Shown here: piece after piece, positions 1-36,654 of the stretch
How positions within the stretch are numbered: the first letter of the stretch is position 1
How the letters are laid out: the number at the start of each line of letters is the position of its first letter
IMG/VR virus record: IMGVR_UViG_3300048837_002321
Span: 1-36,654 of that record
Origin: a virus
DNA: 36,654 nucleotides
Reading direction: 5' to 3' (one strand)
Position numbers and translations under genes: made by a program
Notes under the pieces: model-generated
The model's database searches: none
What the model was told of the DNA's origin: nothing
Seen by the model: only the letters and a program-made list of their open reading frames with translations

Positions 1-1353
1 TCATGCTGCCGCCATCAGCGTGTTGGGCGACATCGCGGTGAGATCGCGAACGAGGCCGCTCAGCCCGTCCAGCCGCAGCCGAATGTCGGCGCCGGCCGGT
101 CCGACGACCACCCGCTCCACCAGCGACCGCACAATCCGCGCCTGCTCCGCCGGGAACAGATGCTCCCACAGCGGGTCAAGCCGATGCAGCGCGTCCTGCG
201 TCTCGCCCTCGGTCAGGTCAGGCGCCTCCCTGCGCGCCGCGCGCCACGTGCCGATCACGATCTCCGGCTGGCGCAGCAGCGCCCGCACCTGATCCACCAC
301 CGCCGCCTCGATCTCCGCCGCTGACACCCGGCGCACAATGGTGTCGTCCCTGACGGCATCCCCCTTCAGCACACGCTGCGCCACATAGTAGCGGTAGAGC
401 CGGCCGTTCTTTCGGGCGTGGGTCGGCGACAGCGCCCGCCCGTCCACTCCGAAGATCAGCCCCTTCAGCAGCGCCGGCGTCTGCGCCCGATTCTGGTTGG
501 CGCGGACCCGTGGGCTGACCTGCAGCACGGCATGTGCCCGGTCCCAAAGCTCCCGCGGCACGATCCCCTGGTGCTCGCCGGGATAGACCTGCCCCTTGTG
601 CGCGGCCTCGCCGACATAGGTCCGGTTGTTCAGCAGCTTGTAGACATCGCCCTTGTCCAGCGGCCGGCCCGCCTTGCTGGTGGCGCCCTCCGCCCGAAGG
701 CGGGCGACCGTCTCGATGCCCGATCCCGTCTCGACGAAGAGCTCGAATACGCGGCGCACCCGCGGCGCCTCGTCCTCATCCACCACCAGCTTGCGGGCCA
801 CGACGTCATAGCCGAGCGGCACCTTGCCCCCCATCCACATGCCGCGGGCGCGGGACGCTGCGAACTTGTCGCGGATTCTCTCGCCAATGACCTCCCGCTC
901 GAACTGCGCGAAGGAGAGCAGGATGTTCAGGGTCAGCCGACCCATGCTGGTGGTCGTGTTGAAGCTCTGCGTCACGGACACGAACGTCACGCCGTGCGCA
1001 TCCATAACCTCCACCAGCTTGGCGAAATCCATCAGCGAGCGGCTGAGCCGATCGATCTTGTAGACCACGATGACATCGACCAGGTCGGCCTGGATGTCAC
1101 GCAGCAGGCGTTGCAACGCCGGCCGCTCCAGCGTGCCGCCGGAGAACCCGCCATCGTCGTAGCGGTCGCGCACCAGCATCCACCCCTCGGCGCGCTGGCT
1201 GGTGATGTACGCTTCGCAGGCGTCGCGCTGCGCGTCGAGCGTGTTGAATTCCTTCTCCAGCCCCTCGTCCGTGGATTTCCGAGTGTAGACCGCGCAACGG
1301 AGCTTCTTCGTGGTCGCCGGCATGGCCGGCTCGATGCGGGCGCGGCGGGTCAT
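1..1353 (-). CDS. Serine site-specific recombinase (phage integrase/resolvase family)
   Basis: 450-aa recombinase that would cut and rejoin DNA at attachment sites through a phosphoserine intermediate. The N-terminal resolvase domain (about 18-165) carries the expected catalytic serine (S27, in YTRKS) and the DRLSR motif at 101-105. A 'recombinase' DNA-binding domain follows (about 175-275) and then a C-terminal region. The Cys residues of the zinc ribbon found in many large serine recombinases are not evident around LLKGLIF, where the chain reads SPTHARK instead. The start overlaps the DUF2924 stop by 4 bases (ATGA); an alternative Met at residue 11 exists. It is the last gene of a minus-strand operon headed by an ImmA/IrrE-like protease and an XRE regulator, so it is the likely integration/excision enzyme. 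The stop codon is at the first bases of the window. Family assignment is secure; the role as this prophage's integrase is inferred. Confidence 0.93.
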   Translation of the reverse strand: MTRRARIEPAMPATTKKLRCAVYTRKSTDEGLEKEFNTLDAQRDACEAYITSQRAEGWMLVRDRYDDGGFSGGTLERPALQRLLRDIQADLVDVIVVYKIDRLSRSLMDFAKLVEVMDAHGVTFVSVTQSFNTTTSMGRLTLNILLSFAQFEREVIGERIRDKFAASRARGMWMGGKVPLGYDVVARKLVVDEDEAPRVRRVFELFVETGSGIETVARLRAEGATSKAGRPLDKGDVYKLLNNRTYVGEAAHKGQVYPGEHQGIVPRELWDRAHAVLQVSPRVRANQNRAQTPALLKGLIFGVDGRALSPTHARKNGRLYRYYVAQRVLKGDAVRDDTIVRRVSAAEIEAAVVDQVRALLRQPEIVIGTWRAARREAPDLTEGETQDALHRLDPLWEHLFPAEQARIVRSLVERVVVGPAGADIRLRLDGLSGLVRDLTAMSPNTLMAAA

Positions 1354-22117: not shown

Positions 22118-24028
22118 GTGCGCCGGCGCGTTGGCGCTATGCTCCGGCCGCCGCCGCAGCTCACGGTGTCGGAATGGGCCGAGCGGCACCGCATGCTCGG
22201 CAGCCGCGCCTCCGCGGAGCCCGGCCCGTGGCGCACCAGCCGCACGCCGTATCTGAAGGACGTGATGGACGCGCTGTCGGCGGTGCATCCGGCCCGGCGC
22301 GTCGTCTTCATGAAGGGCGCGCAGGTTGGCGCCACGGAGAGCGGCAACAACTGGCTCGGCTACATCATGCACCATGTGCCGGCGCCCGCGCTGGCGGTGC
22401 AGCCAACTGTGGAACTGGCCAAGCGCTTCTCGCGCCAGCGCATCGACCCGCTGCTGGAGGAGACGCCGGCCCTGCGGGAACGGGTGGCCCCGGCCCGGGC
22501 CCGCGACAGCGGCAACACCATGCTGTCGAAGGCATTCCCCGGCGGCATCCTGGTGCTGACCGGGGCCAACAGCGCGGTCGGGCTGCGCTCGATGACGGCG
22601 CGGTTCCTCTTCCTGGACGAGGTGGACGCCTATCCCGGCGATGTCGCCGGCGAGGGTGATCCGATCGCCCTGGCCGAGGCCCGGGCGCGGACCTTCGGCT
22701 GGCGTCGCAAGGCCTTCCTGGTCTCGACGCCCACGATCGCAGGCCGCAGCCGCATCGAGCGGGAGTACCTGGCGAGCGACCAGCGGCGGTTCTTCGTGCC
22801 ATGCCCCGAATGCGGCGAGATGCAGTGGCTGCGCTTCGAGCGGCTGCTCTGGGAGAAGGGTGCGCCGGAGACGGTGCGGTACCACTGCTCGGCTTGCGAC
22901 TACGCGATGCAAGAGCACGACAAGACCGCCATGCTCGGCGGCGGAGAGTGGCGGGCGACGGCGGAGGGCCATGACCCGCACACGATCGGCTTCCACATCT
23001 CGGCGCTGTACTCGCCGGTGGGCTGGCTCTCCTGGCAGCAGATCGCGCGCGATTGGGAGGCGGCCCAGGGCAAGCCCGAGGACATCAAGACTTTCAAGAA
23101 CACGGTCCTCGGCGAGACCTGGCAGGAGCAGGGCGAGGCGCCGGATTGGGAGCGGCTGGTCGAGCGCCGCGAGGATTTTCGGATGGGCGTGGTGCCCACC
23201 GGCGCCCTGGTGCTGACGGCTGGCGTCGACGTGCAGGACGATCGTCTCGAATGCGATGTCTGGGGCTGGGCGGAGGGGTTCACCTCCTGGCTGGTGGACC
23301 ACGTGGTCATCCCAAGCAGCCCGCGGGACCGCGAGCCCTGGGACGAGCTGGCGAAGCTGCTGGCGCGGGACTGGCCCCGCCACGGTGGCGGCGCCATGCG
23401 TATCGCCCGGCTCTGCGTCGACACCGGCGGCCGGGACACGGCGGCGGTCTATGGCCACCTCCGCCGCCTGCGGGATCCTCGCATCGCCCCGACGAAGGGG
23501 ATCGATGGCTGGAACCGGGCGCAGCCCGTCCAGGGCCCTACGCCGGTGGACGCGCTGGTCAACGGCCAGAAGCTCCGCCGCGGCCTGAAACTCTGGACCG
23601 TGTCCGTCTCGACCTGGAAGGCCGATCTCTATCGCCGCCTCTGGCTCGGCCGCGGCGACGCGGAGGAGCTTCCACCCGGTTGGGTGCATCTGCCGCGCGC
23701 GATCGACGTCGAATGGGTCAAGCAGCTGGTCGCCGAGCAGCTGCGCACCACGAAGGACCGGCGCGGCTTCGCGCGGCAGGAATGGGCCAAGCTCCGGGAA
23801 CGGAACGAGGCGCTGGACTGCGCCGTGCTCGCCCGCGCCGCGCTCTGGCTGCTCGGCGCCGATCGCTACGGCGAGCAGTTCTGGGCGCGGCTGCGGGACG
23901 AGGTGGCGGATGCGCCGCTCGCGGCAGCACCACCGCCAGTACCCACGGCACCACCATCGCCGCCTGCCGCATCCGACACCCAGCGCCCGCGCGGCTGGCT
24001 CGCGCCGCGCAACGGCTGGCTTCGCTGA
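22118..24028 (+). CDS. Phage terminase large subunit (GpA family)
   Basis: 636-aa packaging motor. The ATPase domain has a GpA-type P-loop KGAQVGATE (66-74) and Walker B FLFLDEVDAYP. A zinc-binding pair CPECGE and CSACDY lies near 230-265. The C-terminal nuclease domain has AGVDVQDDRLE, VDTGG and the closing RNEALDCAVLARAAL. The last ~40 residues are a Pro/Ala-rich tail. It translocates DNA into the prohead and cuts it at packaging start and end. The GTG start at 22118 has a weak signal, and the ATG at 22139 (MLRPPPQ) is a reasonable alternative. GpA-type terminases usually accompany lambda-like portals, as here. Confidence 0.95.
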   Translation: MRRRVGAMLRPPPQLTVSEWAERHRMLGSRASAEPGPWRTSRTPYLKDVMDALSAVHPARRVVFMKGAQVGATESGNNWLGYIMHHVPAPALAVQPTVELAKRFSRQRIDPLLEETPALRERVAPARARDSGNTMLSKAFPGGILVLTGANSAVGLRSMTARFLFLDEVDAYPGDVAGEGDPIALAEARARTFGWRRKAFLVSTPTIAGRSRIEREYLASDQRRFFVPCPECGEMQWLRFERLLWEKGAPETVRYHCSACDYAMQEHDKTAMLGGGEWRATAEGHDPHTIGFHISALYSPVGWLSWQQIARDWEAAQGKPEDIKTFKNTVLGETWQEQGEAPDWERLVERREDFRMGVVPTGALVLTAGVDVQDDRLECDVWGWAEGFTSWLVDHVVIPSSPRDREPWDELAKLLARDWPRHGGGAMRIARLCVDTGGRDTAAVYGHLRRLRDPRIAPTKGIDGWNRAQPVQGPTPVDALVNGQKLRRGLKLWTVSVSTWKADLYRRLWLGRGDAEELPPGWVHLPRAIDVEWVKQLVAEQLRTTKDRRGFARQEWAKLRERNEALDCAVLARAALWLLGADRYGEQFWARLRDEVADAPLAAAPPPVPTAPPSPPAASDTQRPRGWLAPRNGWLR

Positions 24029-24042
24029 AAGGAGACCCCGCC

Positions 24043-24396
24043 ATGGGACCTGTCATCCTGGGCCGTGCCGATGTCGCCGCGGGCCAGTCGCTCGGCGCGC
24101 CGGTGGCCACCACCGGCTATGGCGTGTGCTTCATTGCCCTGCCCTCCGCCTGGACCGACGCACCGCTGACCGTTCAGGGCTCGATGGACGAGGGCCTGCC
24201 CGAGGCCTGGTCGGACCTGTTCGACCATCTCGGCAACGAGGTCGCGCTGGTCGCTGCGGCCGGCCGGGCCATCGCGCTGCCGCCCACCCTGCTGCTCGGC
24301 TGGCGCTGGCTGCGGCTGCGCAGTGGCGTCGCTGCAGCACCGGTCGCACAGGAGGCCGACCGCATGCTCCTCCTCGGCTACCGGGCCTTCGTGTGA
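24043..24396 (+). CDS. Hypothetical protein of the head module
   Basis: 117-aa protein between terminase and portal. It has a strand-rich N-terminal half (PVATTGYGVCFIALPSAW, then APLTVQGSMDEG) and a more hydrophobic C-terminal half (LPPTLLLGWRWLRLRSG). The content suggests a small beta-sandwich, like minor virion proteins. The start follows aaaggagacc with good spacing. It is coupled by a one-base TGATG overlap to the next gene. No family is recognised; a virion surface or head-accessory role is inferred from position. Confidence 0.72.
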   Translation: MGPVILGRADVAAGQSLGAPVATTGYGVCFIALPSAWTDAPLTVQGSMDEGLPEAWSDLFDHLGNEVALVAAAGRAIALPPTLLLGWRWLRLRSGVAAAPVAQEADRMLLLGYRAFV

Positions 24397-25001
24397 TGTC
24401 GCTGCTGTTCCAGCATTACCTGCCCCCCGGACCGCCGGCGCTGCCCTTCGTGCCGGGCCGCTTCTACGCCTCGGCGCATGCCCGCGCGGTGGGCTCGGCC
24501 GCCGCGGTCACCGCCAACCGCCTCTATGCCGTGCCCTATCTGCTGCCGCGGTCCGGCCGCTTCGATGCCATGGCGATCAGCATCACCGGCGCATCCACCG
24601 GATTCCTGCGCATGGCGCTGGCGCGCGACGATGGCACTGGCCGGCCCGGCCACGTCATTGAGGAGCCGGTGGTGGACGTGGATACCGCGGCACCTGGCAC
24701 CGCGCTCTGTCCCTTTACGGCCGCGCGCTGGATCGGGACCGGCGCCTGGTGGGTGCTGCTCTGCTTCTCGGGCACGCCGACGGTGCGCGGCACCAGCAGC
24801 CAGGCCTACAGCGGCGGCAACACCCTGCTGCTCGGCTCGACGGTGGGCGATGGTGGTGCAGGCGGCGGCGGTGGCAGCGAGAACGGCTTCATGGCGGCGC
24901 TGAGCTATCAGGCAGGCCAGGCCTTCCTGCCGAGCCCGCCCACGGGGCTGAGCTATCTCGGCAACGCCCTGACGCCCGTGCCGTCGCTGCGGGCCGCCTG
25001 A
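24396..25001 (+). CDS. Hypothetical virion-associated protein
   Basis: 201-aa strand-rich protein. It has repeated short beta-like segments (RFYASAHARAVG, FDAMAISITGAS, LRMALARDDG, TGAWWVLLCFSG) and a flexible Gly-rich stretch (GGAGGGGGSENG) before the C-terminus. This looks like a beta-sandwich domain of the carbohydrate-binding or fibre type. It is TGATG-coupled to both neighbours and sits between terminase and portal. A surface decoration or head fibre role is a guess. The Gly run may be a linker. Confidence 0.7.
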   Translation: MSLLFQHYLPPGPPALPFVPGRFYASAHARAVGSAAAVTANRLYAVPYLLPRSGRFDAMAISITGASTGFLRMALARDDGTGRPGHVIEEPVVDVDTAAPGTALCPFTAARWIGTGAWWVLLCFSGTPTVRGTSSQAYSGGNTLLLGSTVGDGGAGGGGGSENGFMAALSYQAGQAFLPSPPTGLSYLGNALTPVPSLRAA

Positions 25002-25237
25002 TGGACCCGACCGTCCTCGCCTGGGCGCTGGCCCAGCCCATGGGCACCCGCGCCGCCGTGCTGGTTGCGGCCTTCACTGGCGGCACCACCCGCGTCACCT
25101 TCGACGGGCGCACGGTGGAGTACCGCTCCCTGGATGAATTGGGCCGAGCCCTGTCGGTCTTGCATGGCGCTGAGAACAGCGCCACCCGCCGCCCCAACGT
25201 CACGCTGGCCCGCTTCTCTCGTGAGGGAACCAGGTGA
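25001..25237 (+). CDS. gpW-like head-tail joining protein
   Basis: 78-aa protein. The core TTRVTFDGRTVEYRSLDELGRALSVL (about 28-55) is a beta hairpin followed by a helix with the R-V-x-x-D-G-R-x-V-x-Y-x-S pattern found in short phage gpW-type proteins. In lambda gpW plugs the portal before tail attachment and is encoded between terminase and portal, exactly as here. Length fits the family (about 70 aa). TGATG junctions couple it to both neighbours. Confidence 0.75.
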   Translation: MDPTVLAWALAQPMGTRAAVLVAAFTGGTTRVTFDGRTVEYRSLDELGRALSVLHGAENSATRRPNVTLARFSREGTR

Positions 25238-26715
25238 TGGGGCGTCTCCGTGATGCGTGGCACGCGCTCCGTGGCTATGCCGCCGCGCAGGACAGCCGCG
25301 CCTCGAGCTGGGCGGCCTCCGGCAGCAGCGCCACGGCCGAGGTAGGAGCCGCGGCACCCACCGTGGCGCGCCGCGCCCGCGACGCCGTCCGCAACGACCC
25401 GTATGCCGCCCGCATCGTCGATCTCTGGACCGGCAATGCCGTCGGCGCCGGCATCACCACCCGCTGGCCGGACAAGCCGCATGCCGAGGCTTGGCGGCGC
25501 TGGTCCGACAGCACCGCCTGCGACGCCGAGGGCCGGCTCGACCTCTATGGCCTTCAGGCGCTGGTCATGCGGGCCGTGGTGGAAAGCGGAGAGTGCTTCG
25601 TCCGTCTGCTGCCGGCCGACATCACGCCGGCGAACCCGATCGGGCTGCGGCTCCAGGTGCTGGAGAGCGACCACCTCGACACGGCGCGGCAGGGCGCCAT
25701 CGAAGGCGTCCCCACCCTGCAGGGGATCGGGCTGGGCGAGGCCGGTGAGCCGGTCGGCTATTGGCTGCATCGCGAGCATCCCGGGGCGTCCTGGGTCCTG
25801 CCGGGCGGTGCCACCTGGCTGAGCAGCCAGCGCGTCCCCGCCCGCGACGTGCTGCACATCTATCGCAAGCGCCGGCCGGGCCAGCTGCGCGACGTCTCAT
25901 GGCTCGCGCCGGTGCTGACGCGCCTGCGCGACCTCGGCGACTACGAGGCCGCGCTGCTCATGAAAGCCAAGATCGAGGCCTGCCTCGCCGCCGTGGTTTC
26001 GGAGGATGGCGACGACGCCATGACCGGCCCGGCCTCGGGCCTGCTGCGCGACGCGCAGGGCCGCACGGTGGAGAGCTTCGAGCCGGGCATGATCCTCTAT
26101 CGCCGTGGCATGGGGTCCGTGGAGGTGGTGAACCCGTCCGGTGGTGGATCGCATGCTGCCTTTGCCCGCCGCGCGCTGGAGGCGTCGGCCGTGGGCACCG
26201 GCCTGACCTATGACCAGGTCGCGGGTGACCTCACGCAGGCGAATTACTCCTCGCTGCGTGCGGGCAAGATCGAGTTTCGCCGCCTCTGCGAACAGGTGCA
26301 GTACGGCATGCTCATCCCGATGCTGGTACGGCCCATCGCCGACCGGTTCCACGCGCAGGGCGCGCTGCTCGGTCTGTGGGGTGCCGAGGTGCCCGACGGT
26401 CTGTCCCACGTCCCGCCGGCGCACGAGATGATCGACCCGCTCAAGGACACCACCGCACTGATCGCCCAAGTCCGGGCCGGCTTCGTGCCGCAGCCTGAGG
26501 CGGTCGGCGCCTTCGGCTACGACTTCAGTCAGGTGGTCGAGATGATCCGCGAGGCCAACGCCCTGCTCGACGAGGCGGGCCTCGCGCTCGACACCGATCC
26601 GCGCCGGGTCGCGAAGTCTGGCGCGGCCCAGGACGCCGCGCAGATGGCTGCCGTCGAGATTGCAGCGACCGGGGCAGCGGCGCCGCCTCGCCAGGATCCG
26701 CAGCTTCAGGATTGA
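25237..26715 (+). CDS. Phage portal protein, lambda family
   Basis: 492-aa portal subunit. Diagnostic segments are RARDAVRNDPYAARIVDLWTGNAVG near the N-terminus, AVVESGECFVRL, LQVLESDHLD, ARDVLHIYRKRRPGQLRDVSWL, and in the C-terminal half LTYDQVAGDLTQANYSSLRAG. These are typical of lambda gpB-type portals, which form the dodecameric ring for DNA passage and nucleate the prohead. The last ~45 residues are a variable Ala-rich tail. The start ATG shares its A with the preceding TGA. Confidence 0.95.
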   Translation: MGRLRDAWHALRGYAAAQDSRASSWAASGSSATAEVGAAAPTVARRARDAVRNDPYAARIVDLWTGNAVGAGITTRWPDKPHAEAWRRWSDSTACDAEGRLDLYGLQALVMRAVVESGECFVRLLPADITPANPIGLRLQVLESDHLDTARQGAIEGVPTLQGIGLGEAGEPVGYWLHREHPGASWVLPGGATWLSSQRVPARDVLHIYRKRRPGQLRDVSWLAPVLTRLRDLGDYEAALLMKAKIEACLAAVVSEDGDDAMTGPASGLLRDAQGRTVESFEPGMILYRRGMGSVEVVNPSGGGSHAAFARRALEASAVGTGLTYDQVAGDLTQANYSSLRAGKIEFRRLCEQVQYGMLIPMLVRPIADRFHAQGALLGLWGAEVPDGLSHVPPAHEMIDPLKDTTALIAQVRAGFVPQPEAVGAFGYDFSQVVEMIREANALLDEAGLALDTDPRRVAKSGAAQDAAQMAAVEIAATGAAAPPRQDPQLQD

Positions 26716-26718
26716 CCG

Positions 26719-28824
26719 ATGACCGAACCGATCGAACCGGGCGGCAGCGATGCCGCGTCGGCGCCGGCTGCTGCGCCCGATCGACTGCCCACCGCGGGGC
26801 AATCGATCGTGGCCTGCCGCGCGCTCGCCGCGCCCATCACCGTCAATCGTACTGCTCGCACCGTCGAGGTGGTGTGGAGCACCGGCGCCCGCGCCCGCAA
26901 CTTCGTCCCGCCGCTCGGCCCCATCATCGAGGAACTCGACATGCGGCCCGAGGCGGTGCGCATGGACGGGCTGCGCTCAGGCCGTGCGCCGGTGCTGGAC
27001 ACCCACCGGCGTGCCGGCACGCGCGACGTGCTGGGCCGCGTCATCGCCGCCCGCATCGAGGCCGGCCGCGGCTACGCCACGCTCCAGTTCAGCGGCGCCG
27101 ACGACGTCGAGCCGGTCTGGCAGCGCGTCGCGGACGGCACGCTGCAGTCGGTGAGCGTCGGCTACCGGGTGCACCGATACGAGCCCCGGCCGGACGCTGC
27201 CAGCGGCCAGACCATCCACCGCGCGGTGGATTGGGAGCCCTACGAAATCTCGATCGTGCCGGTGCCGGTTGACGGCCTGGCCGTCATCCGCGGCGAGGGC
27301 GACCGGGGCAACCCCGCCGCGGCCATCGAACCTCCCCTGACTGAGGAACCCACCATGCCCGAGACGACGCCGGCCTCGCCGGATCCCGCGCCCGCGCTCC
27401 CCGCGCCGCCCATTGCCCCGTCCCAGGAGACCACGGTGACCACCGCACCCGCCAACCCGCCCACTGTTCCGCCCGAGCCTACGCGCGCCGCACCGCCGCC
27501 CACCGACCTCGAGGCCATCCGCGCCGAGGCCGAGCGCGCCGCAGTCGAGCGCATCGCCGGCTACGAGCCGGTCCTGGCCGCCGCCCGCGGCCTGGTGACC
27601 GTCGACATGCTCGACACCATGCGCGAGGCCGCCATCCGCGACCGCGTCTCGCCCGAGGTGCTGCGCGGTCGGCTGTGGGAGGCCTTCACCAGCGGTGCCG
27701 CGCGCCCGTCTCTGCCGGCCCGCCCCGACACCGGCCCCTCCAACGAGGACCCGTCGCAGCTCCTCGACGCCATGGCCGAGGCGCTCGCCGCCCGCACCAT
27801 GCCTGGCTACCAGGCGCCGGCCACCGGTCGCCACACCGAGTTCCTGGGCTGGCGCCCTTCCGACATGATCGGCGAACTGCTCCGCGCCCGCGGCGAGCGG
27901 AACGTGCCGCGCAACCCGACCATCCTCGCCGAGCGCGCCTTCCACACCACCTCCGACTTCCCGGCGCTGCTCTCGGCCGCGGCCAACAAGATGCTGCTGG
28001 CCGCCTATGCGCCGGCGGCCCCCACCTACCGGACGCTCTTCCTTCGCCGCGACTTCCGCGACTTCAAGCCGCACCGCCACCTGCGGGTCGGCGACTTCCC
28101 GACGCTGCTGCCGCTGTCGGAGAATGGGGAGGTCCAGGCCGGCACCATGTCCGAGAGCCAGGAGCTGGTCTTCCTGCAGACCTTCGCGCGGCGCATCCGC
28201 GTCACGCGGCAGATGCTGGTGAACGACGATCTCGGTGCCTTCACCGACTTCGCCAGCATGATCGGTCGGCGCGTCGCGGACTTCGAGAACGCCACGGCCT
28301 ATGCCTTGCTGAACAGCGCCGGCGGCGATGGGCCGACGCTCATCACCGGAAGCGCCGCCGTCTTCGGAACGGCCGCCGCGCGGGCCAACAAGGCCTCGGC
28401 CGGCACCGCGCTGGACCTGACCAACCTCGCTGTCGGTCGCGCTGCGGTGATGAAGCAAAAGACCCTGGATGGCCTGCCCATCTCCATCGGCGCCTCCATG
28501 CGCCTCCTGGTCGGGCCGAACCAGGAACTTGCCGCGCGCCAGCTCACCGTCTCGGTCCAGGCGACGCAGACCAGCAACGCCAATGTCTATGCGGGCTTCG
28601 TGCAGCCGCTGGTCGAGCCGCTCATCCCGGCCAACCGCTGGTACCTATTCTCCGATCCGCTCGCCGCGCCGGTCTACGTCTACGGCTACCTGAACGGGGC
28701 GGAGGGGCCGCAGGTGACCACCGGCAATGTCCAGGGCGTGGATGGTGTCGAGGTCTCGGTGATCTTCGACTTCGGTGTCGGCGCCATCGACTGGCGCGGC
28801 GCCTGGTTCAACCCGGGCACCTGA
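26719..28824 (+). CDS. Prohead protease/major capsid protein fusion
   Basis: 701-aa fusion. The N-terminal third (about 20-195) is an HK97-type prohead protease: VLDTHRR, VLGRV, DGTLQSVSVGYRV and WEPYEISIVPVPVDG, with the His and Ser of the family in place. Residues about 200-340 are a Pro/Ala-rich linker followed by a charged helical region that may act as scaffold. The C-terminal part (about 350-701) is a Mu gpT-like major capsid protein, with FRDFKPHRHLRVGDFP, RRIRVTRQMLVNDDLG and a closing VIFDFGVGAIDWRGAW. Such protease-capsid fusions are known in this phage group. An in-frame ATG at 27355 with gagg upstream may give a separate capsid precursor. It follows the portal by 3 bases. Confidence 0.93.
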   Translation: MTEPIEPGGSDAASAPAAAPDRLPTAGQSIVACRALAAPITVNRTARTVEVVWSTGARARNFVPPLGPIIEELDMRPEAVRMDGLRSGRAPVLDTHRRAGTRDVLGRVIAARIEAGRGYATLQFSGADDVEPVWQRVADGTLQSVSVGYRVHRYEPRPDAASGQTIHRAVDWEPYEISIVPVPVDGLAVIRGEGDRGNPAAAIEPPLTEEPTMPETTPASPDPAPALPAPPIAPSQETTVTTAPANPPTVPPEPTRAAPPPTDLEAIRAEAERAAVERIAGYEPVLAAARGLVTVDMLDTMREAAIRDRVSPEVLRGRLWEAFTSGAARPSLPARPDTGPSNEDPSQLLDAMAEALAARTMPGYQAPATGRHTEFLGWRPSDMIGELLRARGERNVPRNPTILAERAFHTTSDFPALLSAAANKMLLAAYAPAAPTYRTLFLRRDFRDFKPHRHLRVGDFPTLLPLSENGEVQAGTMSESQELVFLQTFARRIRVTRQMLVNDDLGAFTDFASMIGRRVADFENATAYALLNSAGGDGPTLITGSAAVFGTAAARANKASAGTALDLTNLAVGRAAVMKQKTLDGLPISIGASMRLLVGPNQELAARQLTVSVQATQTSNANVYAGFVQPLVEPLIPANRWYLFSDPLAAPVYVYGYLNGAEGPQVTTGNVQGVDGVEVSVIFDFGVGAIDWRGAWFNPGT

Positions 28825-30952: not shown

Positions 30953-31692
30953 GGCTCGCCGCCAGCATTGTCGGCGACCTGCGGCAGGCGCTTGCGGCCG
31001 AGGTCCGTGCCGGCGAGCGCGCTGCCATGAGCGCCATTCGCGCCGAGACCGAGCAGGTGAAAGCGGAACTGCGCCGGCAAGTCACCACCGCCTTCTCGGG
31101 CAACGCGCGCGGCATCGCCAATGCCTGGCGGTCGATGATCTTCCCACGCTCCGGCCAGTCGCTGCGGCCCGCGGGGCTGGTCTTCACCAAGGTGCCAAAC
31201 GTCATCGATGCCTTCGAGCGCGGCGCGCTGATCCGCGCCAAGGGTGGCCGGAAGTTCCTGGCCATTCCGACCGGCTTCAACGCCGCGCGAGGACGCCGGG
31301 GGCGTGGTGGTCGAACGCATGCGTTCGACGGGCTGCGCGTCACGCCGGCGCAGATGGTCGCCTCCGGCCAGGCGTTCCTCCGGCCGTTCAAATCGGGGCG
31401 GGGCTTCGTGTGGTGCTTGCCGCTGCGCCAGGGCGAGCAGACCGGGCGGCGTCGCCGGACCCGACTGGTGGCGGGCGGCGTCGCAGAGGTCGGCACCGCC
31501 AATCGCAAGGGGCGTGAGGCCTGGGCGCGCGGCCTGCTGGAGCAGGGGATGGTGCCGATGTTCCTCCTGCTGCCCCAGGTGAAGCTCGCCAAGCGGCTCG
31601 ATGTGAAGGGCGCGGCGGAGCGCGGCCTGCGTCGGCTGCCCGGGCGCTTCGTCGCGGCCTGGGAGCGTGAGAGCGGGAGGGCGGCGCCATGA
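30949..31692 (+). CDS. DUF6441 family phage protein
   Basis: 247-aa basic protein, starting with GTG in a GTGA overlap. An N-terminal helical segment (about 1-50) is followed by ANAWRSMIFPRSGQSLRPAGLVFTK and FERGALIRAKGGRKFLAIPT, then an Arg-rich stretch, GFVWCLPL, and a C-terminal helix (LAKRLDVKGAAERGLRRLP). These features match DUF6441, found in tail modules of alphaproteobacterial phages. Position between head-tail connector and tail terminator suggests a neck or tail-completion role like lambda gpZ; this is inferred from gene order. Confidence 0.8.
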   Translation: MRLAASIVGDLRQALAAEVRAGERAAMSAIRAETEQVKAELRRQVTTAFSGNARGIANAWRSMIFPRSGQSLRPAGLVFTKVPNVIDAFERGALIRAKGGRKFLAIPTGFNAARGRRGRGGRTHAFDGLRVTPAQMVASGQAFLRPFKSGRGFVWCLPLRQGEQTGRRRRTRLVAGGVAEVGTANRKGREAWARGLLEQGMVPMFLLLPQVKLAKRLDVKGAAERGLRRLPGRFVAAWERESGRAAP

Positions 31693-32135
31693 GCATGCGC
31701 GAGACCGCAATCGCGGCGCTGCTTGGCCGTCTGGCGGCGGCGCTTGCCACCCGCAATCCCGCCCCGCTGGTGCTGCGCGGCGAGACCGTGCCGCAGCGCC
31801 TGCCGTCGGGCGGGCTGATCGTCATCCGCGACGGCGAGACCGTCGAGGAGACGGCGATCCTGTCGCCGCTCGCTTGGGCCATCGAGCATCGCGCTGAGGT
31901 CGAGGTGACCGTCGCCGGTGCGACGCCGGCCGCACGCAACGCCCTGCTCGATGCGCTGCTGGTGGACATCGCTGCCGCCATCACCGCCGATCGCATCCTC
32001 GGTGGTGCGGTGGAATGGGCGCAGCCCGGCAGCGCCGCCTTCGAGGATGTCGAGTTCGAGGGCGCCGCCGCTGCGCGCGCCGCCTCCGTCCCCGTCACGC
32101 TGTTCTTCACCGTCGCCGGCTCGCCGCTGGCCTGA
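31689..32135 (+). CDS. Tail terminator-like protein
   Basis: 148-aa protein. It opens with a helix (MRETAIAALLGRLAAAL), followed by LVLRGETVPQRLPSGGLIVIRDG, a helical middle (RNALLDALLVDIAAAITADRILGG) and closing strands (SVPVTLFFTVAGSPLA). This alpha-beta layout and its position right before the tail tube gene match gpU-like tail terminators, which cap the tail end that joins the head. Homologues in databases are sometimes mislabelled acyl-CoA transferase. The start overlaps the previous stop (ATGA). Confidence 0.75.
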   Translation: MSMRETAIAALLGRLAAALATRNPAPLVLRGETVPQRLPSGGLIVIRDGETVEETAILSPLAWAIEHRAEVEVTVAGATPAARNALLDALLVDIAAAITADRILGGAVEWAQPGSAAFEDVEFEGAAAARAASVPVTLFFTVAGSPLA

Positions 32136-32169: not shown

Positions 32170-33126
32170 ATGCCCCGTGCCATCGGCGCTAATTGCCGTC
32201 TGCTCATGATCCCCGAGGCGACCTACGGCACCGCGCCCGCGGGCGACTGGCTGCGCATGCCGTTCCTCTCCTGTGACCTTGGCGCCGAGCAGCCGCTGCT
32301 CGATGCCGACGTGATCGGCGTCGGCAGCAGCCGCGATCCCACCGCGCCCTTCCTCGACACCGTCACCGTGCAGGGCCAGGCGGTGGTGCCGGTGGACCTG
32401 GTCAACATCGGCCACTGGCTGCGCCTGCTGCTCGGGCCGCCGACCACCACCGGCACCAGCCCGAACTTCATCCACAGCTTCGGCTCGGGCGCCGCGGCAC
32501 TGCCGAGCAACGCGATCGAGATCGGCTACCCTGACGTGCCGAACTACGATCTCTGTACTGGCGTCCGCGCCGACACGCTGGAGATCGACTTCTCGCCGAC
32601 CGGTCCCGCTACAGCGACCTTCGGGCTGATGGGGCAGGGCTCGACGCGCGGTGCCGCGAGTTCGGGCGGCACACCGACCAGCGCCGCCTACACCGCCTTC
32701 AACAAGGCGCAGGGGGCGATGAGCCGGAACGGTTCCGCGCTCGCCCAGGTGACCGGCGCTAGGCTCACCTACGCGAACGGCATGGAGATGGTGCGCACCA
32801 TTCGCGCCGATCGGAAGGTCGAGGGCGTGGATCCCGGCATCGCGCGCGCCACCGGCCAGATCACCGCGCGCTTCGCCGACACCACGCTGCTGACCCAGGC
32901 GCAGACGAACGCGCCGGCGGAGTTCGCCTTCAGCTACACGATCGACGCGAACCGCAGCCTGACTTTCACGCTGCACGAGGTCTACCTGGCGGTGGCGAAG
33001 ACGCCGGTCGAAGGGCCGGGGGGCGTCGAGGCCAGCTTCGAGGTCCGCGCGGCCTACAACGCCGCGGCGACGCGGATGATGACTGCGGTGCTGAAGAACC
33101 AGATTGTCGGCACGGGTTACGCGTGA
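32170..33126 (+). CDS. Phage tail tube protein
   Basis: 318-aa protein. It starts MPRAIGANCRLLMIPEATYGTAPAGDW, a typical opening for alphaproteobacterial siphophage tube proteins, and is strand-rich throughout, with repeated Thr/Ala-rich turns and a C-terminal SFEVRAAYNAAATRMMTAVLKNQ. The tube subunit forms the stacked rings through which DNA passes. Length fits the group. The start follows a ggag. The next tail gene on this strand is not adjacent as expected but 3.4 kb downstream, because a cargo segment intervenes. Confidence 0.88.
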   Translation: MPRAIGANCRLLMIPEATYGTAPAGDWLRMPFLSCDLGAEQPLLDADVIGVGSSRDPTAPFLDTVTVQGQAVVPVDLVNIGHWLRLLLGPPTTTGTSPNFIHSFGSGAAALPSNAIEIGYPDVPNYDLCTGVRADTLEIDFSPTGPATATFGLMGQGSTRGAASSGGTPTSAAYTAFNKAQGAMSRNGSALAQVTGARLTYANGMEMVRTIRADRKVEGVDPGIARATGQITARFADTTLLTQAQTNAPAEFAFSYTIDANRSLTFTLHEVYLAVAKTPVEGPGGVEASFEVRAAYNAAATRMMTAVLKNQIVGTGYA

Positions 33127-33293
33127 GCCAGAGTACCGACCGGCCGAGCCCGCCGTGGGTAGCGAGCAGAGTCAGTAGTGAACATTGTGGCTGATCCTGC
33201 TCTGCGCGTGAGGATGTAGCCGAGCGAGTCCAAAATGATCCAGCGCAGTTGGCCGCAAGGTGGTTCATCAAACGTCAATTCGACTGGCCTCAT
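33117..33293 (-). CDS. Possible 58-aa minus-strand ORF downstream of the HEPN-candidate gene
   Basis: Short open frame from ATG 33293 to TAA at 33117-33119, overlapping the end of the tail tube gene on the other strand by 10 bases. It contains VELTFDEPPCGQLRWIIL and LGYILTRR, which look more protein-like than random sequence. It starts 22 bases after the stop of the 543-aa gene on the same strand and could be a small partner in the same transcript. There is no clear ribosome-binding site, and a hairpin lies between the two. Low confidence; a gene remnant or chance ORF is equally possible. Confidence 0.22.
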   Translation of the reverse strand: MRPVELTFDEPPCGQLRWIILDSLGYILTRRAGSATMFTTDSARYPRRARPVGTLAHA

Positions 33294-33296
33294 CCG

Positions 33297-33318
33297 CTAG
33301 CCCAGTCTACCGGGCTAG
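33297..33318 (-). terminator. 7-bp-stem hairpin at the end of the 543-aa gene
   Basis: CTAGCCC (33297-33303) and GGGCTAG (33312-33318) pair perfectly around an 8-base loop. The right arm covers the stop codon of the minus-strand gene. It may help terminate that transcript, but there is no clear T-run. Confidence 0.45.
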
Positions 33319-34946
33319 GGCTTCGGCGGGTTTACGAGCATCTGCTTTCGGCAGAACATCATGGCCGCGAGGAAGTCGCGGGTCGCCGCGTGAAGTTCCT
33401 CCTCAGTCCAATTGGCCATAGCCTTGTGCGTGCCGTTGTTCCGGTTGAGCACCACACGCAGCAGCGTTTGGCCGAGTTCGCGCTTCGGTAGGTTGGACGG
33501 GATCGCCTCGATCTCCTTGAGTCGGTCAGCCCGAGTTTTGCCGCCCCTGGTGCTGACAAGGCTCTTGTTCTTGACGAGAATGTCGCAGACGTCGGCGTCC
33601 TCACCCCAGAAGCGGATCATCTTCCCCATCAGCATGTCGTCGGTGACCACCCCCACCTCGTCGAACATTTCATTCATCAGATGTTCGAAGGTGATGGCGA
33701 GCGATTCCACCTCCTTGGCCAGCGCACTGCGGTCTACGGGATCATTGCTGAACTGGCGTTTCAGCATCTCCTCGATCGACAGGTGCAGCTTGAACGAACG
33801 GCGCTGTTCCAGCCAGTCGCAGAGGTCGGTTACGTCCCCGTCGGCCAGAGAAAGGAGGCCAGCCGTGGGGGCGTGCGGCAGGACACTGGTTCGCAGCGAT
33901 CGTTCAAGATTATCGCGGGCGTCGCGCTCCCAGTCAGGGAAGATGACGTCCAGCGCCGGTTCGAAGTGGCCGGTCGCGCGACCGACCTTCTCCGCCAGCG
34001 TCGCAAAGTCGATCCTGTAGGCCGCCATGGCCATGCGCGCTGCGAGGAAAATCTGGCGTTTATACTCGTTGGCGATCTCTACGCGGCCGCGATGGCTCCA
34101 ATCGTCCCATCGCTCGCAGAGATAGCGAAGGAAGGCGATGACGCGGTCTTGCGTTGCGCCGATGGAGCTGAGCGCTTGCTCTGCCGCCCTGCGATGGGCG
34201 CTCTCAAAGTCAATTTGTTCGGACTCAGTGAATGGTCGCGGACAGCCCGCATGGTTCCGCGAGAGAGCCGCGTGCTTGCGCTGACGGACCGCATCGACGC
34301 GTGCGGCCGCATCAAAGTACGCGCTCCAGTTAAGGCCCGCCGTCAGCCCGCGGGGCGCGTCGAACGGGACGTGCATGAAGTACCGCAATTGCGCGATTGC
34401 GGGCAGGCCGTCGCGGCAGACAAGCGCCACTACTTCGGGTCGGCGTGTGTCTATGTTGAGTCGGACGCCCATCTCTGCGGCATCGGCCACCAGCAGGGCC
34501 TGCCAACCGTGGAAGTAGGTGTCCACGGCGTCCCCCGTGTAGAGGGGCTCCTCGCTCGGCCCACGGATGTTGGTGCGGAACTCTGCCCATGGCTGAAAGG
34601 GCTCCGCGGTGATGTCCTTCGAAATTTGCGCCGCTCCGGGCGGGTCCTTCATGTCGAGCGGATGCTCGACCTCAGGATCTGCGTCGAACCGGCTCCACTT
34701 GCGTATCGCCTCGTTCAGTGCTCCGGCCTGCGCCCGCTCCTCATTGGTGACCGGTGACAGGGGGCTTCCGCCGTGTTCCTCGACCACAAGGGCGCGCGGC
34801 CAGCGAATGCGGGCCACTGGCACGACTATGCGCTGCTCTTCCAGGAACTCGAGGAAGCGCTCCTGAAACATGTTTCCGGTGATGCGCAGGTCGGCCAGCA
34901 GGCGGCCAAACTCTGCCGGAGATATGTAGCGACCGCTCGCGGCCAT
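33315..34946 (-). CDS. Large unknown protein with C-terminal HEPN-type RNase motif (candidate defence protein)
   Basis: 543-aa cytoplasmic-looking protein, no family recognised over its full length. The N-terminal 220 residues mix strand and helix (PEVVALVCRDGLPAIAQLRYF); the rest is mainly helical. Near the C-terminus, R502-N503-x3-H507 lies between two helices (LGQTLLRVVLN before, EEELHAATRDFLAAMMFC after). This is the R-polar-x3-H signature and helix setting of HEPN ribonuclease domains, which are common in anti-phage and toxin-antitoxin proteins. The start ATG at 34946 follows gaggag. It lies on the strand opposite to the tail genes, between tail tube and tail assembly genes. Defence is inference from motif and setting. 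Confidence 0.78.
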   Translation of the reverse strand: MAASGRYISPAEFGRLLADLRITGNMFQERFLEFLEEQRIVVPVARIRWPRALVVEEHGGSPLSPVTNEERAQAGALNEAIRKWSRFDADPEVEHPLDMKDPPGAAQISKDITAEPFQPWAEFRTNIRGPSEEPLYTGDAVDTYFHGWQALLVADAAEMGVRLNIDTRRPEVVALVCRDGLPAIAQLRYFMHVPFDAPRGLTAGLNWSAYFDAAARVDAVRQRKHAALSRNHAGCPRPFTESEQIDFESAHRRAAEQALSSIGATQDRVIAFLRYLCERWDDWSHRGRVEIANEYKRQIFLAARMAMAAYRIDFATLAEKVGRATGHFEPALDVIFPDWERDARDNLERSLRTSVLPHAPTAGLLSLADGDVTDLCDWLEQRRSFKLHLSIEEMLKRQFSNDPVDRSALAKEVESLAITFEHLMNEMFDEVGVVTDDMLMGKMIRFWGEDADVCDILVKNKSLVSTRGGKTRADRLKEIEAIPSNLPKRELGQTLLRVVLNRNNGTHKAMANWTEEELHAATRDFLAAMMFCRKQMLVNPPKP

Positions 34947-35279
34947 CGACTCCTCGCTTACCGACTATTGACCAACACATCTGGCAAAGTTCAGCCGGAA
35001 GCGCCAGCCTGGAGCCACGAAGTGCCGCTCAGGTCGGGAACGGCTGTCCGACCTTGTCAGCGCTGTGCTCTTAGTCTCGTGCCGCAGGACCGGGTTGCTA
35101 ATGCTCTGATGAAGGTCGAGCCTTTGCTCACCTCTGTCGACCCGGGCTCAAGCACAAAGCCCCACGATCCAGCGGCATGGCGCGTTCCGCCTGCCTATGC
35201 GCGCTCGGATCCGAATCCGGACGTTCAGCCTACGGCCGGGACGAGCGCTGAGCGCGGCGCGCATTTCCGACGCCGGCGA
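34947..35279. other. Intergenic stretch between the two cargo genes
   Basis: 333 bases between the DUF4238 stop and the start of the HEPN-candidate gene. No convincing gene is seen on either strand. It should hold the promoter of the 543-aa gene if the two are not co-transcribed, but no clear -35/-10 pair stands out. Confidence 0.5.
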
Positions 35280-36197
35280 CTACCGCTGCGGCAGCGGATC
35301 CCCGGTGACCTGCGACATCACCTTCTCGATGGCGCCCTTGGCCCCGACGATCCATCGCCGGCTCCTTGCTGCCGATTCATAGTTAATCGCGCTGGGCTCG
35401 TATCCGCGCGCCGGCCTTGAGCCGATGTTCTGGGTACTCGGAGACTTCGCTGGCACGAGGATGAGCGCCTTGGAGTCGCTAAGCGGCGCGCGCAGTCCCA
35501 TGCCAAGCTGGCCAGGATCGAAGAGCACGCCCTGGTCGCCCAGGACGAAGCTATGCGGAGGCGTGCTTATCAGCGTCCAATCAAGGCCGAGGAGTGCGTC
35601 GCGAAGTTTCTCGCGTCCGTCCGGCAACCTGATGAGATCCGTGAAGGGGAGATCGACCATCCCGCTGCTCGCCTCGAGTGCGAGCTGGATCCGGGCGATC
35701 TCTAGCGCCGCCTGCTTCGGACCGAGACGGAGGATGTGATCGTATTCGCTCTCCGCAATTAGATCCCCGAAGAACGTCTGGAACTCCTCGAAGCTTGCCG
35801 CCGAGAAGGTCTCGATAAAGAGCCGAGAGAGGAACCGGTGTGCCGTCCGCGAGTAGTCGAACAAGCGCTGCGGATCCCGCATGATCTGGACCGAGAGAAA
35901 CTCGGCCATACGCCTCCTCATCGCCTCCGACAGGTCGCCTGCCAGGATCGCGGACATCGTCGTGGCACCGTCGTCGTCGACCTTTTGGAGATCTGCGGTC
36001 TCGATCGAGGTGTCGTCGAGGCCACCGGGATCGAGCGTGTAAAGGTCCCTAATCTTCATGATCTTCCTGGAAGACCGCGCCTTCACGTCGCCCTGATCCC
36101 AATCATATGCGTATAGATGCCCGTCAGCATCCTTGAAGCGCTTGATCCATGATTGGGTGACGAAGTGGTGTTCGCGGGGTGGATTTCCGCTGGTCAT
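35280..36197 (-). CDS. DUF4238 domain-containing protein
   Basis: 305-aa protein of the DUF4238 type. The signature is near the N-terminus: REHHFVTQSWIKRFKDADGHLYAYD, equivalent to the H-[HY]-x-P/T-Q-x2-[LI]-x-R-F motif of the family. A long helical middle (EAMRRRMAEFLSVQIMRDPQ, then a Phe/Glu-rich segment) and a beta-rich C-terminal part (LDWTLISTPPHSFVLGDQGVLFD, ALILVPAKSP) follow. DUF4238 proteins are scattered in mobile and accessory DNA; function is not established. The start at 36197 has ggagag upstream; an in-frame ATG at 36281 lacks one. It shares orientation with the 543-aa gene downstream. Confidence 0.85.
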   Translation of the reverse strand: MTSGNPPREHHFVTQSWIKRFKDADGHLYAYDWDQGDVKARSSRKIMKIRDLYTLDPGGLDDTSIETADLQKVDDDGATTMSAILAGDLSEAMRRRMAEFLSVQIMRDPQRLFDYSRTAHRFLSRLFIETFSAASFEEFQTFFGDLIAESEYDHILRLGPKQAALEIARIQLALEASSGMVDLPFTDLIRLPDGREKLRDALLGLDWTLISTPPHSFVLGDQGVLFDPGQLGMGLRAPLSDSKALILVPAKSPSTQNIGSRPARGYEPSAINYESAARSRRWIVGAKGAIEKVMSQVTGDPLPQR

Positions 36198-36543
36198 CAA
36201 GATGCTCTCCGCGCTCGATCTGGCGTGTGGAAGTTTCCGCTCGAAGCCCATCCTCTCGACGCTGTCGCGTGGGCAAGTCAACCGTCACGCCGAATTTAAA
36301 GTCCCGCGACCTTTCGCAATTCCATTGCGACGCTAGCGCGTCGTCAAAGGCGCAATTTAGGAATCGTCCGGTGGGCCCGTCGAGGGCTGAATTTGGCCAG
36401 ATACGTGTTCTTCGAACTCGGCCGTTCATCTTTGGTTATCGCGAGTAGCCTCGCTGAACGAGCCCCATCATTGTCCGGGTATCCGTCGCTGGCTTCCACT
36501 GCCAAGAGCTTGCGCGGATCAAGCCTCAGCCACGGAGTAGCGC
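36198..36543. other. Intergenic region with adjacent inverted repeats upstream of DUF4238 and the tail gene
   Basis: 346 bases between divergent genes, AT-richer than the phage genes. CGCAAT (36315-36320) and ATTGCG (36324-36329) flank a TCC spacer, and immediately next to it CGACGC (36328-36333) and GCGTCG (36338-36343) flank TAGC. These could be operators or the trace of an insertion end. No gene seen. Confidence 0.5.
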
Positions 36544-36654
36544 ATGTTGATCCTCGACCTCCTCGCCGAGCCGTACTGGCTCGACCTGCCGCGCGGCGTC
36601 CGCGTGGAGATCCGCCCTGTGACCACCGCGGTGATGGCCGCCGCCCAGGCCGCT
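36544..36654 (+). CDS. Tail assembly chaperone-like protein, 5' part only
   Basis: The first 37 codons of a gene cut by the window end. It starts MLILDLLAEPYWLDLPRGV and continues VEIRPVTTAVMAAAQAA. I recall this kind of opening in tail-assembly proteins encoded directly after the tail tube gene in alphaproteobacterial siphophages. The ATG is preceded by ggag with suitable spacing. Length and any frameshift product cannot be judged. Confidence 0.6.
   Translation, partial: MLILDLLAEPYWLDLPRGVRVEIRPVTTAVMAAAQAA

Follow-up and report, generated by a model that had tools for sequence, protein, structure and literature searches.

A minus-strand gene within the tail operon of a temperate phage

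The window (the whole analysed stretch of viral DNA, 36,654 nucleotides) contains, amid phage tail genes, a minus-strand gene for a 543-aa protein, P0001, which the first-pass annotation took to be a HEPN ribonuclease carried as prophage cargo and involved in defence. The question raised by this locus is whether P0001 is a defence protein and, if so, how it might act. The results described below are best compatible with P0001 being a single-gene, abortive-infection-type defence protein encoded at a cargo site in the tail operon of a temperate siphophage, with a probability of roughly 0.6. The relevant features of the window are:

1..1353, minus strand: serine-type integrase/recombinase (phrog_95, E 1.1e-105; phrog_125, DNA invertase)
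22118..28824, plus strand: terminase large subunit, portal and capsid-protease fusion (PHROG matches)
31689..32135, plus strand: tail terminator (phrog_4204, E 8.5e-20), the left end of a junction that is always free of inserts
32170..33126, plus strand: tail-tube gene (phrog_290, 'minor tail', E 2.6e-52), the left border of the cargo site
33127..36543, no strand: cargo site (hotspot) from the tail tube to the tail-chaperone-like gene, delineated by comparison of related contigs
33315..34946, minus strand: P0001, candidate HEPN ribonuclease defence protein, 543 aa (open reading frame, homologues, dN/dS)
35280..36281, minus strand: DUF4238 protein, the second cargo gene at this site (PF14022, E 2.4e-16)
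36544..36654, plus strand: start of a tail-assembly-chaperone-like gene (37 residues; cut by the window end), the right border of the cargo site

The combination of a serine-type integrase with terminase, portal, capsid-protease and tail genes indicates that the window represents a temperate phage or prophage. Among the sampled Alphaproteobacteria, the tail gene of related prophages shows at most 51% identity to that of the window. Homologues of the product of 32170-33126 are named 'tail tube protein' in Rhodobacter phages, and 125-aa homologues of the chaperone-like gene, encoded in related contigs, match the tail assembly chaperone of RcKemmy.

The reading frame of P0001 is present where it had been predicted, is open throughout and starts with an ATG, with GAGGAG shortly 5' of it. 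The dN/dS values of 0.24-0.39, obtained for P0001 against its Caulobacter homologues and for these homologues among themselves, indicate that this is a real coding gene; for homologues of the Bradyrhizobium branch, the values are at most 0.15. The gene had been placed between two plus-strand tail genes, which is correct on the left, where the tail-tube gene is located, but not on the right, where the minus-strand DUF4238 gene comes first (333 aa from a TTG start, an internal ATG being the likelier true start). A promoter and terminator scan yields one weak minus-strand match within the P0001 gene and no terminator.

The C-terminal domain

Within P0001, the following parts are distinguished, all on the minus strand:

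33318..33812: residues 379-543, C-terminal HEPN-like helical domain (AlphaFold2 model; structural comparison)
33426..33443: R502-N-N-G-T-H507, Rx4H motif, putatively catalytic (R502 and H507 conserved throughout the 8-sequence alignment)
33681..33686: E421-H422, candidate HEPN helix-2 acidic residue (invariant pair, n=8; long upstream helix)
33813..34946: residues 1-378, N-terminal region, proposed sensor or regulatory part (unmatched in the libraries used; conserved across full-length homologues)

The R-N-x3-H string at residues 502-507, noticed in the initial annotation, is the sole RN...H of P0001 and conforms to the pattern of the HEPN superfamily, Rx4-6H with a polar residue usually following the arginine (PMC3710099); the superfamily is further characterised by endoRNase activity that is independent of metal (PMC3710099). 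On its own, an Rx4-6H string is weak evidence: there are six in P0001, compared with a mean of 3.8 in shuffled sequences, and, given that such strings are frequent by chance, the significance of this one has to come from its conservation and its place in the protein. In an alignment of eight sequences (P0001, two from Caulobacter, one from an R. etli plasmid and four from Bradyrhizobium/Afipia), some of which are 21-24% identical, 18 columns are invariant; these include R502 and H507, the pair whose conservation was in question, as well as E421-H422. The arginine and histidine are also retained in four additional fragments (L008, L021, L022 and L023). The spacing between them is x4 in the branch to which P0001 belongs, whereas the Bradyrhizobium branch has x5 (or x3), values that fall inside the published Rx4-6H range or close to it; the arginine may thus differ in position between the branches. 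In the Bradyrhizobium branch, it is followed by I or G/A, so that only part of the HEPN motif pattern is found there. E421 sits in a predicted long helix (406-431), in the context Ex3N and not the Ex3[KR] typical of HEPN helix 2 (PMC3710099).

The AlphaFold2 model of residues 379-543 alone is all helical, with pLDDT of 87.4 and pTM of 0.83. In this model, R502 (model position 124) ends the helix 111-126, and H507 (model position 129) lies in the following loop and precedes the helix 137-160, which bears out the suggestion that the motif is flanked by two C-terminal helices. This predicted placement agrees with the description of the all-helical HEPN bundle, in which the motif is found where helix 3 ends or where the loop towards helix 4 begins (PMC3710099). 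A Foldseek search of PDB and BFVD started with the C-terminal model gives no match at E <= 0.001. A second look with VIA-align, for which Z values below ~13 between helical bundles may be coincidental, places 1wwp (Z 7.4) and HepT 6m6u (Z 7.3) at the top, and also identifies YutE 1ylm (Z 6.7), further HepT structures 7ae6, 7ae9 and 7bxo (Z 6.7, 6.2 and 5.9), the 'HEPN domain protein' 4nqf (Z 5.9) and the prophage HepS 9oij (Z 5.3). Among the 16 structures with Z >=5, 8 are HEPN structures, and 1wwp and YutE (1ylm) are both assigned to HEPN in the literature (PMC3710099); a few other, non-HEPN entries are intermixed, and RSV M2-1 also reaches Z 6.0-6.9.

At the sequence level, P0001 has no matching model or chain in Pfam, PADLOC, NCBIfam or the PDB sequences, and hhalign against the DUF4145 and PF05168 (HEPN) sets, run with a reversed decoy, detects nothing significant; the best DUF4145 alignment covers the R502-H507 motif (P 0.067, not significant). 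A match to phrog_10031 (E 0.0016, 35 residues) was judged to be noise. Altogether, the C-terminal domain of P0001 is, judging from the predicted structure, probably a HEPN domain. The HEPN-like fold proposed at the outset is thus upheld by the helical model and by the HEPN chains that lead the second look, to a moderate degree only, with no significant match from Foldseek.

The N-terminal region

The N-terminal ~375 residues of P0001, already unrecognised in the first-pass annotation, match nothing in any of the family libraries used or among the PDB sequences. Full-length homologues of P0001 are encoded in Caulobacter sp. (48-49% identity; plasmid and genome searches) and, with 21-26% identity, homologues are detected in Bradyrhizobium/Afipia; the R. 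etli plasmid copy consists of the C-terminal half (238 aa annotated, 46-49% identity). The N-terminal region is conserved among the full-length homologues: 44 of the 56 columns that are invariant in the seven sequences precede residue 340. The full-length AlphaFold2 model, built from five sequences, has poor confidence for most of residues 1-200, and a Foldseek search with it is meaningless because of the low-confidence N-terminus.

These conserved N-terminal residues are relevant to an alternative under which P0001 is defence cargo but its C-terminal helical domain is non-catalytic and binds RNA or holds the dimer, with the activity located in the N-terminal part. Degenerate HEPN domains bind RNA or hold dimers together. 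The modest Z values of the second look and the different R-H spacing in the two branches point in the same direction, whereas the invariance of the arginine and histidine points away from it, as does the R. etli copy, perhaps a remnant, which comprises almost only the C-terminal half with both residues intact. We consider this alternative unlikely and prefer a catalytic HEPN domain.

Distribution and genomic context of the homologues

The P0001 family is scarce, with homologues in 2 of 299 Caulobacteraceae genomes, 6 of 392 genomes of the Bradyrhizobium family and 1 of 385 in a third genome set; there is none in the viral contig collection (queries P0001 and A1) and none among named phages, which speaks against the defence reading. 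Copies in L008, L021 and L023 are split or remnants; those in L021 and L008, from the Bradyrhizobium branch, each occupy two frames, a case of natural gene decay. Scarcity combined with split and remnant copies would fit the pattern that is usual for accessory defence genes.

Examination of the neighbourhoods of the chromosomal and plasmid homologues, suggested earlier as a check for defence genes, reveals defence-like genes, namely an ABC-3C gene and caspase-domain genes. The two Caulobacter loci, L005 and L006, have 3' chromosomal flanks in common and differ in the neighbouring genes; upstream of the homologue in L005, an SMC-like ATPase is encoded along with a protein of the ABC-3C CTD9 type, and the surroundings of both loci are a chromosomal variable island. 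The Caulobacter loci have no partner gene in common with the window; what L005 and L006 share with each other is limited to flanking chromosomal stretches.

Several individual contexts were observed as well. The R. etli copy (L001:8001-8798), which may be a remnant or a stand-alone HEPN, lies between a gene annotated as HNH endonuclease and one annotated as AAA ATPase/helicase/HEPN-associated. A gene adjoining another homologue (L009:10386-11825), the product of which starts MPATIFFSWQLDTPP, looks TIR-like by eye. Three loci of the Bradyrhizobium branch share a short upstream coding stretch (L002:5460-5627, L003:3800-3970 and L009:7758-7925), possibly a former partner gene; there is no such stretch near P0001 in the window.

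A cargo site between tail genes

A search of viral contigs with the tail-tube protein identifies 80 loci, the weakest with 77% identity, of which 68 have the 125-aa chaperone-like gene within reach and are included in the junction counts. The junction between the tail tube and the chaperone is loaded (>300 bp) in 65 of these 68 contigs, spanning 671 to 5827 bp, and is empty in three, where it measures 3 bp (L090), 3 bp (L091) and 17 bp (L056); in L090 and L091, the junction sequence is TGATG, a stop overlapping a start. Inserts of >300 bp are found in 0/31, 0/32, 0/74 and 0/78 cases at four neighbouring junctions. The two tail genes adjoin in more distant relatives, which show 40-51% identity and comprise six sampled prophage-like loci as well as RcKemmy and Sc-Yong805-1. 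Given that the site is loaded within the clade and that the genes adjoin in these relatives, it is a cargo dock specific to a single clade of phages, located at 33127-36543 in the window and at the corresponding interval in L028-L106.

The 66 loaded sites, the window included, carry 45 distinct cargo sets with many unrecognised proteins, and in 59 of the 66 the G+C content of the cargo is below that of the adjoining tail gene (62% vs 70% in the window). Thus, the site between the tail tube and the chaperone combines the hallmarks of a hotspot: fixed flanking core genes, varied and defence-rich cargo, and empty versions. These observations lend substance to the view of P0001 as prophage cargo in a defence context. 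No description of this hotspot was found in the open-licence literature searched.

The cargo of the window consists of P0001 and the DUF4238 gene; a single DUF4238 gene from a P2 hotspot protects against T7 (PMC9122126). Across the loaded sites, a recognised toxin-antitoxin (TA) or defence-domain gene is present in at least 38 of 66, and in at least 19 of the 45 sets, the cargo having been scanned in part; more than half of the sets have no recognised gene of either kind in the scanned portion, which speaks against the defence reading. The recognised cargo includes SIR2_2 with an LmuB-like SMC (L036), a PD-T4-6/mad6-like kinase (L072, L073 and L081), caspases (L100 and, weakly, L082), AlbA (L068) and Hypoth_Ymh (L099). 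The location of P0001 is the strongest of the new evidence: swappable anti-virus genes occupy the same spot in dozens of related viruses, which makes a defence role of P0001 probable.

Other cargo deserves mention in its own right. A complete BilABCD (bacterial ISG15-like) operon (L042:7099-9931; PADLOC E 2e-56 to 7e-172) adjoins an HTH/IrrE-type gene. A HEPN_Toprim_N (PF18871) protein (L030:8120-9307), with no detected similarity to P0001, represents a second HEPN-associated system of the dock. A lone 1453-aa cargo protein with no Pfam match (L032:1049-5410; also in L039) is a large candidate defence protein, and a minus-strand pair of 288 and 382 aa (L103:7021-9038) also has no Pfam matches.

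The same cargo bears on the possibility that P0001 is the toxin half of an addiction or TA unit, with prophage maintenance, not phage defence, as its main effect. ParD/ParE pairs are encoded at 21 of the 66 loaded sites and Phd-type pairs at 8, and HEPN toxins are frequent in TA systems (PMC3710099). However, no small partner gene adjoins P0001 in the window, none of its neighbours recurs beside its closest homologues, and a protein of 543 aa, much of it N-terminal to the HEPN-like domain, does not resemble the small TA toxins, which makes this possibility quite improbable. Least probable is a host-fitness or regulatory role unrelated to phages, which draws on the seemingly metabolic or regulatory cargo of some sites (alcohol dehydrogenase, histidine kinase) but is at odds with the HEPN-like active-site conservation, the DUF4238 neighbour, the defence-like neighbours of the homologues and the patchy distribution.

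Comparison with known systems

The closest counterpart to the proposed defence protein is Tha, a HEPN-based anti-phage system found in prophages of Staphylococcus aureus (Rostol et al. 2024, PMC11087260), an RNase that depends on H270 and is switched on by the tail proteins of an invading phage (PMC11087260). Like P0001, Tha is a prophage-borne single protein with an unrecognised N-terminus and a C-terminal HEPN (R265NSIMH270, compared with R502NNGTH507). Unlike P0001, which has 543 aa and lies in the tail operon, Tha has 301 aa and is encoded near the integrase and repressor, along with an antisense inhibitor gene, ith. Homology was rejected (Tha-1 BLASTP E 2.7; hhalign probability <=0.1%), so the likeness would be one of the way of working only. 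An ith-like antisense inhibitor is not favoured: the window contains long antisense frames, and the homologues have only frames that differ in position and extent, which is what a high G+C content would produce.

HepS of the Salmonella Gifsy-1 prophage (PDB 9oij), which we take to be an abortive-infection protein, is another prophage HEPN (Z 5.3, rmsd 4.0, 109 aligned residues); however, it is a 191-residue chain with no comparable N-terminal part, and P0001 has no PDB sequence match. The HEPN/MNT (HepT-MntA) systems resemble P0001 in the predicted C-terminal fold (6m6u, Z 7.3; 7ae6, Z 6.7) and in Rx4H, but the HepT toxin is short and is paired with an MNT antitoxin, and no MNT antitoxin gene adjoins P0001, its neighbours being the tail-tube gene and the DUF4238 gene. 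In P2-like phages and P4 satellites, the defence hotspots likewise have a fixed junction with interchangeable anti-phage cargo, including DUF4238 (Rousset et al. 2022, PMC9122126), in a different phage group and at a different place from the site described here, between the tail tube and the tail assembly chaperone. Tab, a moron of Pseudomonas phage JBD26, is a further case of defence within a prophage late operon, but it is an 83-residue assembly blocker located between terminase genes, far smaller and with another mechanism (PMC10884400).

Proposed mode of action

If P0001 is indeed an abortive-infection-type protein, it would be made at a low level in the lysogen from its own minus-strand unit and would be inactive. 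Upon infection by a rival phage, the N-terminal ~375 residues would meet a trigger, probably a phage component; the C-terminal HEPN dimer might then cut RNA via R502 and H507, as the fold and the conservation of these residues suggest, and the cutting would arrest the growth of both the cell and the invader. All the steps beyond the HEPN-like domain, the conserved arginine and histidine and the defence hotspot are inferred. Superinfection exclusion in the strict sense of an entry block, as suggested initially, is not supported, given that an intracellular HEPN RNase would not act in this manner; abortive infection, as in Tha, appears to be the better analogy.

A bolder version, which we regard as doubtful, is that the N-terminal ~375 residues form a novel sensor domain that recognises a phage structural protein and switches on the HEPN RNase, so that the Tha principle would have arisen twice independently, and that the site is an undescribed, clade-specific siphophage defence dock with many uncharacterised systems.

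Implications

Both HEPN effectors and defence hotspots in prophages have precedents; new, as far as searched, are the P0001 family, for which there is no library model, and, within the open-licence literature, the hotspot between the tail tube and the chaperone. If the proposed function is correct, P0001 represents a sensor-HEPN architecture that is missed by Pfam, NCBIfam and PADLOC. The hotspot lets the defence hypothesis be tested by location, beyond P0001 alone, and would provide a constant position within a clade of prophages, open to checking, at which unrecognised cargo could be interpreted as likely anti-phage or addiction genes.
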